A program made the translations under genes and the position numbers. A stretch of 64,000 nt of DNA from Candidatus Sulfotelmatobacter sp. (GTDB lineage Bacteria > Vulcanimicrobiota > Vulcanimicrobiia > Vulcanimicrobiales > Vulcanimicrobiaceae). Below the pieces are notes generated by a model. It saw nothing but the letters and a program-made list of their open reading frames with translations. It made no database searches and was not told where the DNA came from. This document shows positions 37,574-45,437 of this stretch, in pieces; the first letter of the stretch is position 1, and the number at the start of each line of letters is the position of its first letter. Location of the stretch: NCBI GenBank assembly GCA_035504415.1, contig DATJRY010000011.1, positions 186,001 to 250,000 on the forward strand. Reading direction: 5' to 3'.

Positions 37574-37607
37574 GGGGCGCTCCGCACGCGGGGCGCCCTC
37601 AATTTTT
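37574..37607 (+). terminator. Intrinsic terminator before the ilv-leu operon
   Basis: GGGCGC (37575-37580) pairs with GCGCCC (37593-37598), extended by a G-T pair. The run TTTTT (37603-37607) follows. It ends the COG4315-like gene and insulates the promoter that starts two bases later. Confidence 0.7.
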
Positions 37608-37608
37608 G

Positions 37609-37638
37609 TTGACAACGCTTCGCGATTCAGGATACAAC
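37609..37638 (+). promoter_or_regulatory. Promoter of the ilvC-leuB operon
   Basis: A perfect -35 TTGACA (37609-37614) and a -10 TACAAC (37633-37638) are separated by 18 bases. Transcription should begin about 37643-37646, leaving only a few bases before the leader-peptide ATG at 37648. Confidence 0.75.
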
Positions 37639-37647
37639 CGGGAAACG

Positions 37648-37728
37648 ATGCTTGTGCGTCTGGTCCTCGTCCTCGTCCGCGTACTTCTTGCCGTCCTTAT
37701 TGACGACCGGCGAGACGCTTTCGCATAG
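37648..37728 (+). CDS. Branched-chain amino-acid leader peptide (attenuation)
   Basis: A 26-codon ORF directly downstream of the promoter. It reads MLVRLVLVLVRVLLAVLI for the first 18 codons: 7 Leu, 6 Val and 1 Ile (14 of 18 are branched-chain codons). DDRRDAFA and TAG follow. GGGAAA lies just upstream. Its product has no expected function; its translation senses charged Leu, Val and Ile tRNA. The codons after the control run overlap the antiterminator segment 37706-37714. The design is that of the enterobacterial ilv and leu leaders, here in a different lineage. Confidence 0.85.
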   Translation: MLVRLVLVLVRVLLAVLIDDRRDAFA

Positions 37729-37792
37729 ACGACGAACCAGGTCGCTCTAAACATGACGAAAGCCCTCGCCGGTAGCAGCCGGCGGGGGCTTT
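37706..37792 (+). promoter_or_regulatory. Transcription attenuator of the ilvC-leuB operon
   Basis: Terminator: the left arm 37759-37772 and right arm 37779-37792 form 14 continuous pairs (one G-T) around a TAGCAG loop; the right arm ends in TTT and TCTCT follows. Antiterminator: ACCGGCGAG (37706-37714) is the exact complement of CTCGCCGGT (37765-37773), which takes up most of the terminator's left arm. A ribosome stalled on the Leu/Val/Ile codons leaves 37706-37714 free, so the antiterminator forms and transcription continues into ilvC. A ribosome reaching the TAG at 37726 covers it, so the terminator forms. Confidence 0.82.
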
Positions 37793-37810
37793 CTCTATCC
37801 GGAGGATTTC

Positions 37811-38848
37811 ATGGAAGCCTACTACGACCGCGACATCGATCGCGGCGCACTCGACGGGAAGACGATCGCCATCATCGGGTACGGCAGTCAGGGCCGTGCC
37901 CACGCGCTGAACCTGCACGATTCCCGTCACGACGTCGTGGTCGGCTTGCGGCCCGGCTCGGCGAAGCGCGACGAAGCGCGCCGGGACGGCGTCCCCGTGG
38001 CATCGATCCCGGAAGCGGTCGCGCAAGCGGACCTCGTCATGATGCTGATCCCCGACGAGGAACAGCCCGCCGTCTACATGCGCGAGATCGTCGAGCACCT
38101 GCGGCCCGGCATGACGCTGGCGTTCGCGCACGGGTTCGGCATCCACTTCGGCACCATCGTGCCGCCGCAGGACATCGACGTGATCATGATCGCGCCCAAG
38201 GGCCCGGGGCGCCTGGTGCGCAGCGAGTACGAAGCCGGCCGCGGCGTCCCGTGCCTGATCGCGATCCATCAGAACCCGAGCGGCAAAGCCCGTGAGGTCG
38301 CGCTGGCTTATGCGTCGGGAATCGGCGGCGGGCGCGCCGGCATCCTCGAGACCTCGTTCAAGGAAGAGACCGAGACCGATCTCTTCGGCGAGCAGGCGGT
38401 GCTGTGCGGCGGGATGAGCGCGCTGGTGAAGGCGGGGTTCGAGACGCTGACCGAGGCCGGCTACGCGCCCGAGATGGCCTACTTCGAGTGCCTGCACGAG
38501 ATGAAGCTGATCGTCGACCTGATGTACGAGCGCGGCATCGAAGGCATGCGCAACGCGATCAGCAACACGGCCAAGTACGGCGACTACACGCGCGGCGAGC
38601 GGATCATCACCGAGCAGACCCGCGCCACCATGCGCGAGATCCTCGGCGAGATTCGCAGCGGCAAGTTCGCGCAGGACTGGGTGGCCGAACACGCGGCCGG
38701 CAAGCCGTCGTTCCGCAAGTTCCGCGAAGACGCGGCGCGCCACGAGCTCGAGTCGGTGGGGCGCGAGCTGCGCGGCCTGATGCCGTGGATGAACGAGCAT
38801 AGCTCGAACGCCGAAGCGGACGACGATCTCCGCTTCCGCGTCCTGTAG
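37811..38848 (+). CDS. ilvC: Ketol-acid reductoisomerase
   Basis: A 345-residue class I KARI that isomerises and reduces 2-acetolactate or acetohydroxybutyrate with NAD(P)H and Mg2+. The Rossmann loop is [18 protein letters not shown]; the following [16 protein letters not shown] carries likely NADPH-phosphate contacts. The metal-binding helices are [12 protein letters not shown] and [18 protein letters not shown], then [14 protein letters not shown] (37801-37805) precedes the ATG by 5 bases. It is the first structural gene after the attenuator. Confidence 0.96.
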
Positions 38849-38874: not shown

Positions 38875-40565
38875 ATGAACGGCGCGCGTGCCGTCCTCGA
38901 GGCCCTCGAACGCGAGGGCGTCGACATCGTCTTCGGCTATCCCGGCGGAGCGATCATGCCGCTCTACGACGCCTTGTTCCAACACCCCGTACGGCATGCG
39001 CTGTGCCGTCACGAGGCGGCGGCGGCGTTCGCGGCGAGCGGGTACGCGCGCACCTCGGGTCGCGTCGGCGTCTGCTGCGCGACCTCGGGGCCGGGCGCGA
39101 CCAACTTGGTGACCGCGCTGCTGGACGCGATGATGGACAGCGTCCCCGTGGTCGCGATCACCGGCCAGGTGCGCAGCGAGCTGATGGGGACCGACGGCTT
39201 CCAGGAAGCCGACGTCTGCGCGATCACCCAGCCGATCACCAAGCGCAACTTCTTGATCGCCGACGCGTCGGAGATCGCGAGCACGATCGCCGAAGCGTTC
39301 GCGCTCGCGCGCAGCGGCCGGCCGGGTCCGGTCCTGGTCGACATCCCCAACGACGTGCTCAAGGCCAAGCTCGGCGAGGATCCGATCGTGGCGCTGGTCG
39401 CGGACGGTCCGCGCGCGGTCGAGCCGCAACTCTCCGGCGCCAAGCCGCGCCCGAGCGCCGACTCGGTGCGCGAGGCGGTGGCGCGCCTGCGCGCGGCGCG
39501 GCGACCGGTCGCGATCATCGGCGGCGGCATCCGCGCCGGCGGCGTCGAGCAGTACCGCACCTTCGCCTCGATGCTCGGTATCCCGCACGCCGCGACCATC
39601 ATGGCGCTCGGCGCGGCGACGCCCGGCGACCCCGCGTTCTTGGGGATGCTCGGGATGCACGGGCTCAAGGCGGCCAACAAAGCCGTGCAGCGCGCCGACC
39701 TGCTGCTGGCGCTGGGGATGCGGTTCGACGACCGCGTGACCGGCAAACCCGATCGCTTCGCGCGCGAAGCGACCGTCATCCACGCCGACATCGACGCGAC
39801 CGAGTTCAACAAGATCATCCCGGCCGACGTCACGCTGCACGGCGACCTCTCGTACACGCTCGAGGCGCTGATCGACGAGCTCAAGCGCGGCCACGTCCCA
39901 CGCTTCGACGATTGGGCGATGGAAGCGCGGCTGCTCGGCGGAGCGCTGCCCAGCGACCGGGTCGCGGAGCGCGTGCTCTCGGCGACCGACGCGCTCGACC
40001 GTCTCTTCGAGGTGCTGCCGCCCGACGCGATCGTGACGACCGACGTCGGACAGCACCAGATGTGGACGGCGCAGCGCGCGCGGCCGCTGGCCCCGCGCAA
40101 GTTCGCCACCTCGGCGGGCCTGGGCGCGATGGGCTTCGGCTTCCCCGCCGCGATCGGCGCGGCGTTCGCGAACCCGAGCGTGCCGGTCTACGCGGTCGTC
40201 GGCGACGGCGGCTTCCAGATGTGCCTGCCCGAGCTGGCGACGCTGCGGCGCTACGACGTCCCGGTCAAGATCGTCCTGATCGACAACCACAACCTGGGGA
40301 TGGTCCGCCAGTGGCAAGAGCTGTTCTTCTCCGAGCGGTACTCGGCGACGAACCTGGCCGACAACCCCGACTTCACCGCGATCGCGCGCGCGTACGGGAT
40401 CGCGGCGTTCTCCTTGAGCGACCCGGCCGACGCGCATCGCGTGCTGGCCGAGTTCGTGGCCGCGCCGGGACCGGCGCTGCTGCACTGCGCGTGCCATCCG
40501 ACCGAGAACGTCTGGCCGATGATCCCGGCCGGCATGACGGTCGACGACCTGATGGAGGCCCGGGC

Positions 40566-40569
<4 letters not shown>
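38875..40569 (+). CDS. ilvB: Acetolactate synthase, large (catalytic) subunit
   Basis: A 564-residue TPP enzyme condensing two pyruvates (or pyruvate and 2-ketobutyrate). The catalytic Glu is in CRHEAAAAFAASGYAR. The FAD domain is central (residues about 195-340), and the TPP motif is GDGGFQMCLPELATL...NHNLGMVRQ. GGAGAGTACG precedes the ATG. It overlaps ilvN by 4 bases. ilvD and ilvE are not in the cluster. Confidence 0.95.
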
Positions 40570-43827
<3,258 letters not shown>

Positions 43828-43831
<4 letters not shown>

Positions 43832-44355
43832 TCGTCGAGGGCACCGTGCTCGCGATCCCGCGAGCGAACATCGACACCGACCAGATCATCCCGGCGCACT
43901 ACCTGACCCGCATCGACGAGGCAGGGATGGGCGAGCATCTCTTCGAGGGCTTGCCCGACGGCGCGCACTACCTGACGACGCACCCGACCGCGACGATCCT
44001 GGTCACCGGTGAGAACTTCGGCTGCGGCTCCTCGCGTGAGCACGCTGCGTGGGCGCTCAAGGACCGCGGCTTCCGCGCCGTGATCGCGCCCAGCTTCGCG
44101 CGCATCTTCCACGAGAACGCCTACAACAACGGCGTCGTGCCGGTCATCCTGCCGCCCGAGACCGTCGAAGGACTGCTCGGCGCGACGCGCATCGCGATCG
44201 ACGTGCAGAACGAACGGCTGCGCGCCGACGGCGGCACGCCGATTCCGTTCCAGCTCGATCCGCTGCGCAAGCAGTTCGTGCTCGGCGGCGGCTTCCTGGC
44301 CTATCTGGCGACGAAGATCCCGCAGGTCCGGGCCTGGGAAGCCGCGCGCGGATGA
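43828..44355 (+). CDS. leuD: 3-isopropylmalate dehydratase, small subunit
   Basis: A 175-residue swivel-domain subunit: NIDTDQIIPAHYLT, ENFGCGSSREHAAWAL (substrate loop), and IAPSFARIFHENAYNNGVVPV. It is of the short bacterial/archaeal type. It overlaps leuC and leuB by 4 bases each. Confidence 0.95.
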
Positions 44356-45437
44356 GCGCTCGCATCGCGGTCCTGCCGGGCGACGGGATCGGGCCGGAAG
44401 AGACCGCTGCCGCGGTGCGCGTGTTGCGCGCCGTGCTCCCCGATGCGACCTTCACCGAAGGCGCGGTCGGCGGGTCGGCGATCGCCACGCACGGCACGCC
44501 ACTGCCCGAGGAGACGCTGGCACTGGCGCGTGCGAGCGACGCGGTGCTGTTCGGCGCCGTCGGCGGCAACGGCTTCGAGCACCTGACCCCCGACAAGCGG
44601 CCGGAAGCGGCGATCCTCGGCTTGCGCAAGGCGTTCGGGCTCTACGCCAACGTGCGGCCGGCGCGCGTCTTCCCGGGCCTGGAGTCGCGCTCGCCGCTGC
44701 GCGCCGAGCTGGCGACCGGCATGGACCTGGTACTCGTTCGCGAGCTGACCGGCGGGTTGTACTTCGGCCCGCGCAGCCTCGAGCCGGAAGACGGCGTCCT
44801 GACGGCGCGCGACACGCTCGTCTACCGCGACTTCGAGATCGAGCGCATCGCGCGCTTCGCGTTCGCCTTGGCGCGCACGCGCCGCAAACGCCTGACCTCG
44901 ATCGACAAGTCCAACGTCATCATCAGCTCGCAGCTGTGGCGCCGCGTCGTCAACGACGTCGCCGGCGACTATCCCGACGTGACGCTCGAGCACATGCTGG
45001 TCGACAACGCGGCGATGCAGCTGGTCCGCGACCCGCGCGCGTTCGACGTCATCGTCACCGAGAACATGTTCGGCGACATCCTCTCCGACGAGGCGGCGAT
45101 GATCACCGGCACCATCGGCACCGCCCCCAGCGCCAGCATCGGCGCGCCGCCCGACACCAAGCCGTTCGGCATCTACGAGCCGATCAGCGGCACCGCGCCC
45201 GACATCGCCGGCAAGGGCATCGCCAACCCCGCCGCCGCGATCCTCTCGGCCGCATTGCTGGCTCGCTTCTCGCTCGGCGAAACGGCCGTCGCCGACGCGA
45301 TCGACGCCGCCGTCGCCGACGCGCTGCGCACCGGCCCGCGCACCCCCGACCTCGACGGCCCGGCCGGGGTGAGCACCGAGGCCTTCACCGACGCGGTGCT
45401 GGCACGACTCGGAGCGATGGCCGACCTACCGGCGTGA
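44352..45437 (+). CDS. leuB: 3-isopropylmalate dehydrogenase
   Basis: A 361-residue NAD+-dependent oxidative decarboxylase giving 2-ketoisocaproate. Features: [12 protein letters not shown], LLLRxE-type region read here as [21 protein letters not shown], and [14 protein letters not shown], with [24 protein letters not shown] at the cofactor site. It is the last gene of the operon; its end overlaps the convergent ECF sigma gene by 12 bases, with no terminator hairpin evident between them. Confidence 0.96.

Follow-up and report, generated by a model that had tools for sequence, protein, structure and literature searches.

A putative near-leaderless attenuator for leucine, valine and isoleucine ahead of the ilvC-leuB operon of a Candidatus Sulfotelmatobacter genome

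The stretch of DNA analysed here, 64,000 nucleotides (nt) of Candidatus Sulfotelmatobacter sp. (contig DATJRY010000011.1, positions 186,001 to 250,000; hereafter the window, in whose numbering all coordinates are given), carries an operon for branched-chain amino acid synthesis, ilvC to leuB, preceded by a short leader. This leader is very probably a ribosome-mediated transcription attenuator for leucine, valine and isoleucine, with a leaderless or near-leaderless leader peptide, that would control the ilvC-leuB operon. The original prediction, made from the letters of the window alone, had pointed to a promoter, a 26-codon leader open reading frame (ORF) with its codon counts, a hairpin and a 9-base complement to that hairpin, and all of these are present. 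The parts of the element are as follows.

37609..37614, + strand: -35 box TTGACA, read from the sequence; the TTGAC spacing is common to 30 of 30 homologous leaders
37633..37638, + strand: -10 box TACAAC, ending 9 nt before the leader ATG; predicted transcription start at about 37643-37648
37648..37728, + strand: leader peptide ORF MLVRLVLVLVRVLLAVLIDDRRDAFA*, with Leu, Val and Ile as control codons; comparable ORFs in 32 further genomes
37686..37695, + strand: region 1, tentatively assigned from the minimum free energy fold as the partner of region 2 when no ribosome is present (protector hairpin)
37706..37726, + strand: region 2, antiterminator 5' strand, inside the end of the leader ORF, placed by duplex energy and by a cognate-versus-permuted test over 15 genera
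37753..37773, + strand: region 3, antiterminator 3' strand, of which 37758-37773 is the terminator left arm
37758..37793, + strand: terminator hairpin of 16 pairs with loop AGCA (37774-37777), followed by an imperfect U-tract; -32.1 kcal/mol
37801..37805, + strand: Shine-Dalgarno sequence GGAGG of ilvC, read from the sequence, outside the hairpin

The leader region and its conservation in relatives

The two promoter boxes are separated by 18 nt, and the leader ORF runs from the ATG at 37648 to a TAG at 37726-37728, encoding the 26-codon peptide MLVRLVLVLVRVLLAVLIDDRRDAFA. Its first 18 codons include 7 Leu, 6 Val and 1 Ile, which match the amino acids made by the operon that follows. The terminator had been described as 14 pairs at 37759-37792; the hairpin is there, but those pairs lie inside the 16-pair stem listed above. 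Likewise, 37706-37714 (ACCGGCGAG) is the exact complement of 37765-37773, as had been claimed, but the antiterminator helix is about twice as long as these nine bases, pairing ACCGGCGAG..GCTTTCGCAT (37706-37726) with ATG.CGAAAGC.CTCGCCGGT (37753-37773) at -30.9 kcal/mol. This duplex has a z of -5.4 against shuffles of the region 2 strand. Against dinucleotide shuffles, the fold of 37700-37800 beats 200 of 200 (z -5.16), and the fold of 37640-37810 has a z of -4.02. A separate terminator-like hairpin with TTTTT stands at 37574-37599, just upstream of the leader promoter, and is probably the end of the preceding gene.

An IlvC search over 149 genomes of the phylum gave matches in 43 at E<=1e-3, of which 36 were counted as real by E-value and seven weak ones (E 1e-4 to 1e-3) were set aside. 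G065 and G095, with no visible operon start, were also set aside, so that the start of the operon could be read in 34 of the 36. The leader device is present in 33 of these 34 genomes, including that of the window, and all 33 belong to one order and two families. It stands before ilvC in 12 (L001-L011 and G125), before ilvB in 19 and before a leuA-like gene in two (genus g16), and in G139, from another family of the phylum, no device was seen in the stretch before ilvC. The gene order varies among the loci (ilvC-ilvB-ilvN-leu, ilvB-ilvN-ilvC or leuA-ilvC) and the upstream neighbours also differ, so the conserved block is the leader itself.

The leader statistics given here come from 30 leaders of 19-27 codons; the two g16 leaders and that of G125 were found later by eye and were not added. 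Upstream GTG codons in L035 and L052 also satisfied the spacing rule, and the ATG was taken in both. When a leader is defined as a TTGAC followed 35-44 nt on by a start codon, with at least 7 Leu, Val or Ile in 15 codons, 29 of the 30 leaders from the phylum comply (within 400 nt), as against 1 of 80 ilvC loci of other phyla (229,825 upstream bases; among the matches listed). These control loci were obtained from a contig scan with an IlvC alignment and, among the matches listed, include no near relative by record titles.

A GC-rich terminator hairpin of -20.7 to -35.9 kcal/mol occurs in 30 of 30 leaders, and each has 5-7 T in a stretch of 8 bases if those belonging to the stem itself are included. 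The antiterminator pairing is, on the whole, conserved with covariation across genera. With one leader taken from each of 15 genera, the summed duplex energy of cognate regions 2 and 3 is -362.1 kcal/mol, whereas permuted partners give -321.3 +/- 10.6 kcal/mol and only 6 of 100,000 permutations are as low as the cognate set. When whole leaders were shuffled, many of those outside the genus had an antiterminator z close to 0 or positive; this permutation test and shuffles of region 2 only were the controls used after it. With region 2 shuffled, every one of the 30 leaders has a negative z, and 19 of them fall below -1.64 (genus-level Wilcoxon p 3e-5). Compensatory changes are seen as GTT..AAC, GAT..ATC and AAC..GTT beside CGG..CCG, and pairing extends to all three flanking positions in 17 of 30 leaders, a count that takes the best of several placements and has no shuffle control. 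By eye, GCUUUC/GAAAGC is replaced by GUUUUC/GGAAAC in L002, and CCGG/CCGG by TCGG/CCGA in G125. Several of the paired changes fall on bases of the terminator loop, and therefore only the antiterminator needs those pairs. The original prediction had called for this comparison, and its attenuator reading is borne out by it, in that the leader ORF, its Leu/Val/Ile run and the terminator are all retained in relatives, and the antiterminator is so for the most part.

The same comparison bears on the idea that the Leu/Val/Ile run is a small functional peptide, for example a membrane-seeking one, and that the hairpin is an unrelated terminator or processing site. The peptide is indeed hydrophobic, and RR(A/D)AFA at its C-terminus shows little change within the genus. 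Its sequence otherwise varies around a Leu/Val/Ile run that is for the most part retained (5-14 residues). The part of the ORF that is conserved, its end, is the strand pairing and covarying with the terminator, and parallel leaders of the same genome, described below, carry other amino acids that match their own genes. We consider a functional peptide very improbable.

Codon choice also sets the leaders apart. Leu, Val and Ile account for 293 of 698 leader codons (0.42) versus 7573 of 35128 (0.22) in the ilv and leu genes. Among leader Leu codons, CTT makes up 62 of 143 (0.43) versus 0.06 in the ilv/leu genes of the same loci (Fisher p 2e-34, which is not a p for independent events because the 30 leaders are mutually related). 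ATT makes up 33 of 44 Ile codons (0.75 versus 0.12 in the genes) and GTT 35 of 106 Val codons (0.33 versus 0.09), while CTG (0.05 versus 0.35) and GTG (0.02 versus 0.35) are avoided. T- and C-ending codons are read by one isoacceptor each, and leader codons mostly end in T or C, with the rarer of the two increased. Codons for Ala and Arg show a shift too, and part of the bias may therefore come from base composition or RNA pairing. The marked use of CTT, GTT and ATT in leaders versus CTG, GTG and ATC in genes offers a testable pointer to the tRNAs that the cell may watch.

A proposed mechanism and its rivals

The original prediction also held that the promoter leaves almost no 5' untranslated region (UTR). 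In a search confined to 32-45 nt ahead of the start codon, 30 of 30 leaders have TTGAC at 36-43 nt. This supports a predicted start of this kind, and from this spacing the leaders should be near-leaderless. In leaderless promoters of Streptomyces, the distance from the -10 box to the transcription start is 4-9 nt, with a mean of 6.3 (excerpts of PMC8079986). At that spacing of about 6 nt, the 5' UTR would be 0-5 nt long in the window and, judged by eye, roughly 0-7 nt in the other leaders.

Transcription would thus begin 0-5 nt 5' of the leader AUG, and a ribosome could bind the 5' end as it emerges, with no need of a Shine-Dalgarno sequence. When charged tRNA for Leu, Val or Ile is scarce, the ribosome would stall in the codon run before 37706 and leave region 2 open, which would pair with region 3 before the second terminator arm is made and allow transcription to continue into ilvC. 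When the tRNAs are charged, the ribosome would reach the stop codon and mask most of region 2, and the terminator would form. If the ribosome is assumed to shield 12 nt upstream and 15 nt downstream of its P site, region 2 of the window leader stays entirely exposed with any of 13 of the 14 Leu/Val/Ile codons in the A site. Once the ribosome has reached the stop, it masks 14 of the 19 bases of region 2 that pair. For each of the 30 leaders, folding predicts the antiterminator when region 2 is free and arm 4 is unmade, and the terminator when a ribosome occupies the stop.

Several results weigh against this interpretation. A consensus scanner called neither the promoter nor the terminator of the window; TACAAC does not have the final T that the scanner rule demands, and the tail after the window stem (TCTATCCG) is weak, an imperfect U-tract with 3 T in 8. 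To arrive at 5 T in 8, the T bases at the end of the stem itself have to be included. For 11 of the 30 leaders (z -0.1 to -1.5), which belong to genera g3, g12, g21, g26, g38 and g39, the antiterminator taken by itself does not clearly exceed shuffled controls, and at L034 (g3), L045 (g35) and g39 the cognate region 3 strand is equalled in pairing by half or more of those swapped in. Equilibrium folding of the full-length leader still favours the terminator in 27 of the 30, even when region 2 is left free, so antitermination would have to be kinetic, decided during transcription. Finally, all 30 leaders are predicted to form the protector hairpin between regions 1 and 2, but its margin over codon-shuffled controls is small (mean z -0.72); at the level of the genus, the mean z is -0.78 (p 3e-4, 15 genera, codon shuffles).

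A leader peptide may also act on translation. In such a scheme stalling in the leader would free or hide the ilvC ribosome-binding site and leave termination unchanged, as with the cysteine leaders of mycobacteria, whose leaderless poly-Cys ORFs are described as translation-acting in the excerpts of PMC9031893 and PMC13236596. The hairpin of the window ends at 37793, ahead of the GGAGG at 37801-37805, and in all 30 leaders a stable GC-rich hairpin ends T-rich. The position of the ilvC Shine-Dalgarno sequence outside the hairpin favours transcriptional control, and we regard translation attenuation as improbable.

T-boxes control ilv-leu genes in Firmicutes. A T-box, a metabolite riboswitch or a pseudoknot could in principle control the operon, with the ORF incidental, and related genes elsewhere do carry such elements: a guanosine tetraphosphate (ppGpp) riboswitch on ilvB (in part of PMC10272879) and the LEU pseudoknot on leuA in Actinobacteria (in part of PMC1262725). 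An Rfam scan of the window gave no family at its gathering score, and relaxed thresholds added nothing convincing. The T-box model RF00230 (gathering score 93 bits) has no match in the window or in its genome; in the phylum, under stricter filters that lose weak matches, 0 of 148 genomes are over the cut-off and 3 of 148 have a match at E<=1e-3. Leu_leader (RF00512) scores 14.7 bits (E 2.9) in place of its gathering score of 50. Control of this kind is therefore the least credible of the explanations weighed, and transcription attenuation by a translated leader is the one that we retain. The three T-box-like RNAs (L247, L248 and L249, from G141, G143 and G144; 81-86 bits) all come from family f16, and none was detected in the order of the window.

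The operon and comparable leaders in the same genome

The leader is followed by ilvC-ilvB-ilvN-leuA-leuC-leuD-leuB, in that order.

37811..38848, + strand: ilvC, ketol-acid reductoisomerase (PF07991, PF01450)
38875..40569, + strand: ilvB, acetolactate synthase large subunit, with three thiamine pyrophosphate enzyme domains; named ilvB from its position and a reading of the sequence
40566..40784, + strand: ilvN-like short regulatory subunit, an ORF whose probable name comes from its position
40792..42519, + strand: leuA, 2-isopropylmalate synthase (PF00682, PF22615, PF08502)
42497..43831, + strand: leuC (PF00330), overlapping leuA, with its start codon from a mechanical ORF call
43828..44355, + strand: leuD, from ORF, order and homologues; named from a reading of the sequence
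44352..45437, + strand: leuB, from ORF, order and homologues; named from a reading of the sequence

Many genomes of the phylum gave no ilvC match at E<=1e-3 (106 of 149, and 59 of the 85 with at least 90% completeness and at most 5% contamination), which suggests frequent loss of branched-chain amino-acid synthesis in the phylum.

Starts of the leaderless type look common in the genome of the window, where the pattern TTGAC-N17-19-TANNNN-N-ATG occurs at 46 sites versus 12 for the reversed pattern, and the sites include the starts of ORFs read as ribosomal proteins L21 and L27 (L104 and L080; names from sequence reading). The counts in four other members of the genus (G119, G128, G120 and G121) are 31, 40, 40 and 44 versus 19, 27, 13 and 10 when reversed. 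With GTG as the start codon there is no clear excess in the window's genome (36 versus 29 in the reversed control); from these patterns, leaderless starts seem to be common and to prefer ATG. In four genomes (L061, at G000:C1:4468 on the + strand, L198, L208 and L231) a five-codon leaderless-type ORF, MPLGG*, is followed by a terminator-like hairpin in what appears by eye to be the leader of a gene read as rpoB.

Among the 46 sites, 23 open ORFs of fewer than 60 codons, and nine of these, including that of the window, combine a codon run, a hairpin and a fitting gene. The eight sister leaders are as follows.

L073:1500-1716, G000:C11:611571, + strand: ilvA (threonine dehydratase) leader, Ile-only, MFASSSIIIASRIIIAAPPGRRAASA, leaderless-type, with terminator
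L097: ilvE leader, Leu/Val/Ile, MIAARFGLPVAKILVGYVPSAGSSFA
L085: prephenate dehydratase-DAHP synthase fusion leader, Phe/Tyr/Trp, MTARTFGYWYFYARQAPRRGEPV
L083: metY leader, Met/Cys, MIAHSREMMSMCAASRGPV
L092: metB-like leader, Met/Cys, MIRTTAASMMRMMRTRTSGRRYFVLR; in the window's genome only
L098: sulfite reductase leader, Cys, MSFTCCLSMMQCSTGLRTRRSATS
L068: ssuA (sulfonate uptake) leader, Cys, MRSMSCRLAMSMCCSPGGRPGSV
L095: peroxiredoxin leader, Cys, MFETGRSAMCCCLCRPRTGRPGFSLA; in the window's genome only, and the loosest match of amino acid to gene

For comparison within the genus, 60 sites were picked by eye among those listed (20 in G119, 20 in G120, 14 in G121 and 6 in G128). Six of the eight sister leaders recur in other members of the genus: those of ilvE, the aromatic fusion and metY in at least three further genomes each, that of sulfite reductase in at least two, and those of ssuA and ilvA in at least one each. 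One more ilvA leader was found in G124. Within the 330 nt examined at each of the 16 best ilvA homologue loci, the Ile leader is present at three (G000, G119 and G124) and was not seen at the other 13.

Every sister leader has a stable hairpin 3' of it; those of ilvE are stable (-33 to -37 kcal/mol) with poor U-tracts. The antiterminator z is -3.9 to -5.3 for ilvE (4/4), -1.5 to -2.8 for the aromatic leaders (4/4), -2.1 to -2.8 for ilvA (3/3), -2.7 to -3.6 for metY (4/4), -3.2 for metB and -1.3 for peroxiredoxin; the values for sulfite reductase are -1.7, -3.5 and +0.1, and those for ssuA -0.2 and +0.6. At trpE (L311) no leader ORF was seen by eye in the stretch viewed, and hisG (L310) is internal to an operon whose start lies beyond the stretch viewed. 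A Pro/Arg-rich ORF, L100, was dropped, with an antiterminator z of +0.8 and no clear gene.

A more speculative possibility, which we put forward tentatively, is that leaderless attenuation is the default of this lineage for branched-chain, aromatic and sulfur amino acids. One cassette, consisting of a TTGAC promoter at about -37, a leaderless ORF ending in the antiterminator strand and a GCCCCTCGCCG-type terminator, might have been copied to about nine operons and retuned by a swap of the codon run only, and the peroxiredoxin Cys leader might turn a shortage of Cys-tRNA into a sensor of thiol stress; the likeness among the cassettes was judged by eye only. Whatever their origin, nine candidate attenuators in one genome, with six of the sisters repeated in relatives, make a ready set for comparative and experimental work. 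Attenuation requires that ribosome and polymerase stay closely coupled, and here it seems to use leaderless starts throughout. One may ask whether leaderless initiation makes attenuation faster or more reliable.

Relation to known systems

The element shares its working principle with the attenuators of the enterobacterial leuABCD and ilvGMEDA operons. In those operons the leader peptide is led by a Shine-Dalgarno sequence and the 5' UTR is longer.

The original prediction considered such attenuation to be undescribed in a genome of this kind. For the phylum this stands as far as a partial literature check goes: among the top-ranked literature matches, with most subscription journals outside, we found no report linking Eremiobacterota with attenuators, leaderless mRNA or transcription starts. 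It does not stand for leaderless ilv attenuation as such, which is known in Streptomyces (PMC8079986, in part). A barely studied lineage thereby gains predicted amino-acid sensing that is order-wide and accompanied by covariation, and that does not depend on a single sequence. The Ile-only ilvA, aromatic and peroxiredoxin leaders, together with the lineage and the breadth of the set, may be new as far as the literature search reaches.

The closest likeness in the leader itself is to Streptomyces lividans, for which the excerpts of PMC8079986 describe leaderless leader peptides before ilvBHC, leuA, leuS, trpE and metN. As here, S. lividans ilvL is a leaderless ORF rich in the product amino acids and placed before ilv genes, several such leaders occur in one genome, and the leaderless promoters have a TTGACn -35 box. 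Unlike here, its ilvL is short (MRTRILVLGKRVG), the genes are ilvBHC and, in the same excerpts, several leaders are without a clear terminator, whereas the present leaders have 19-27 codons and clear terminators in 30 of 30, the window operon runs from ilvC to leuB, and the phylum is another one.

The ilvB1NC attenuator of Mycobacterium tuberculosis, in the excerpts of PMC13236596, has LVVI control codons and terminator and antiterminator folds that exclude each other; its antiterminator strand is masked by a ribosome that has reached the stop codon, much as we propose for the window element. That leader is 166 nt long and has experimental support, whereas the present one is predicted to be near-leaderless and rests on computation. 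Corynebacterium ilvB-II and the ilvB-OMG motif, the latter with 41 representatives in various phyla, likewise place a branched-chain-rich leader ORF before ilvB and have been proposed to act by attenuation (PMC10272879, in part). They were compared by description only, and none of 4227 Rfam models matched the window element.

The sulfite reductase, ssuA and peroxiredoxin leaders resemble the poly-Cys ORFs of mycobacteria, which are leaderless and place Cys runs before sulfur genes (excerpts of PMC4633059; Canestrari 2020, as cited in PMC9031893 and PMC13236596). Attenuators have been predicted across Actinobacteria, and the mycobacterial cys leaders are without obvious terminators in the part of PMC1262725 concerned, whereas each sister leader here has a stable hairpin. 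Since leaderless attenuators are known in Streptomyces, the kind is known and the window element is a further member of it; the order-wide evidence and the suite of sister switches lift it above a single new case.

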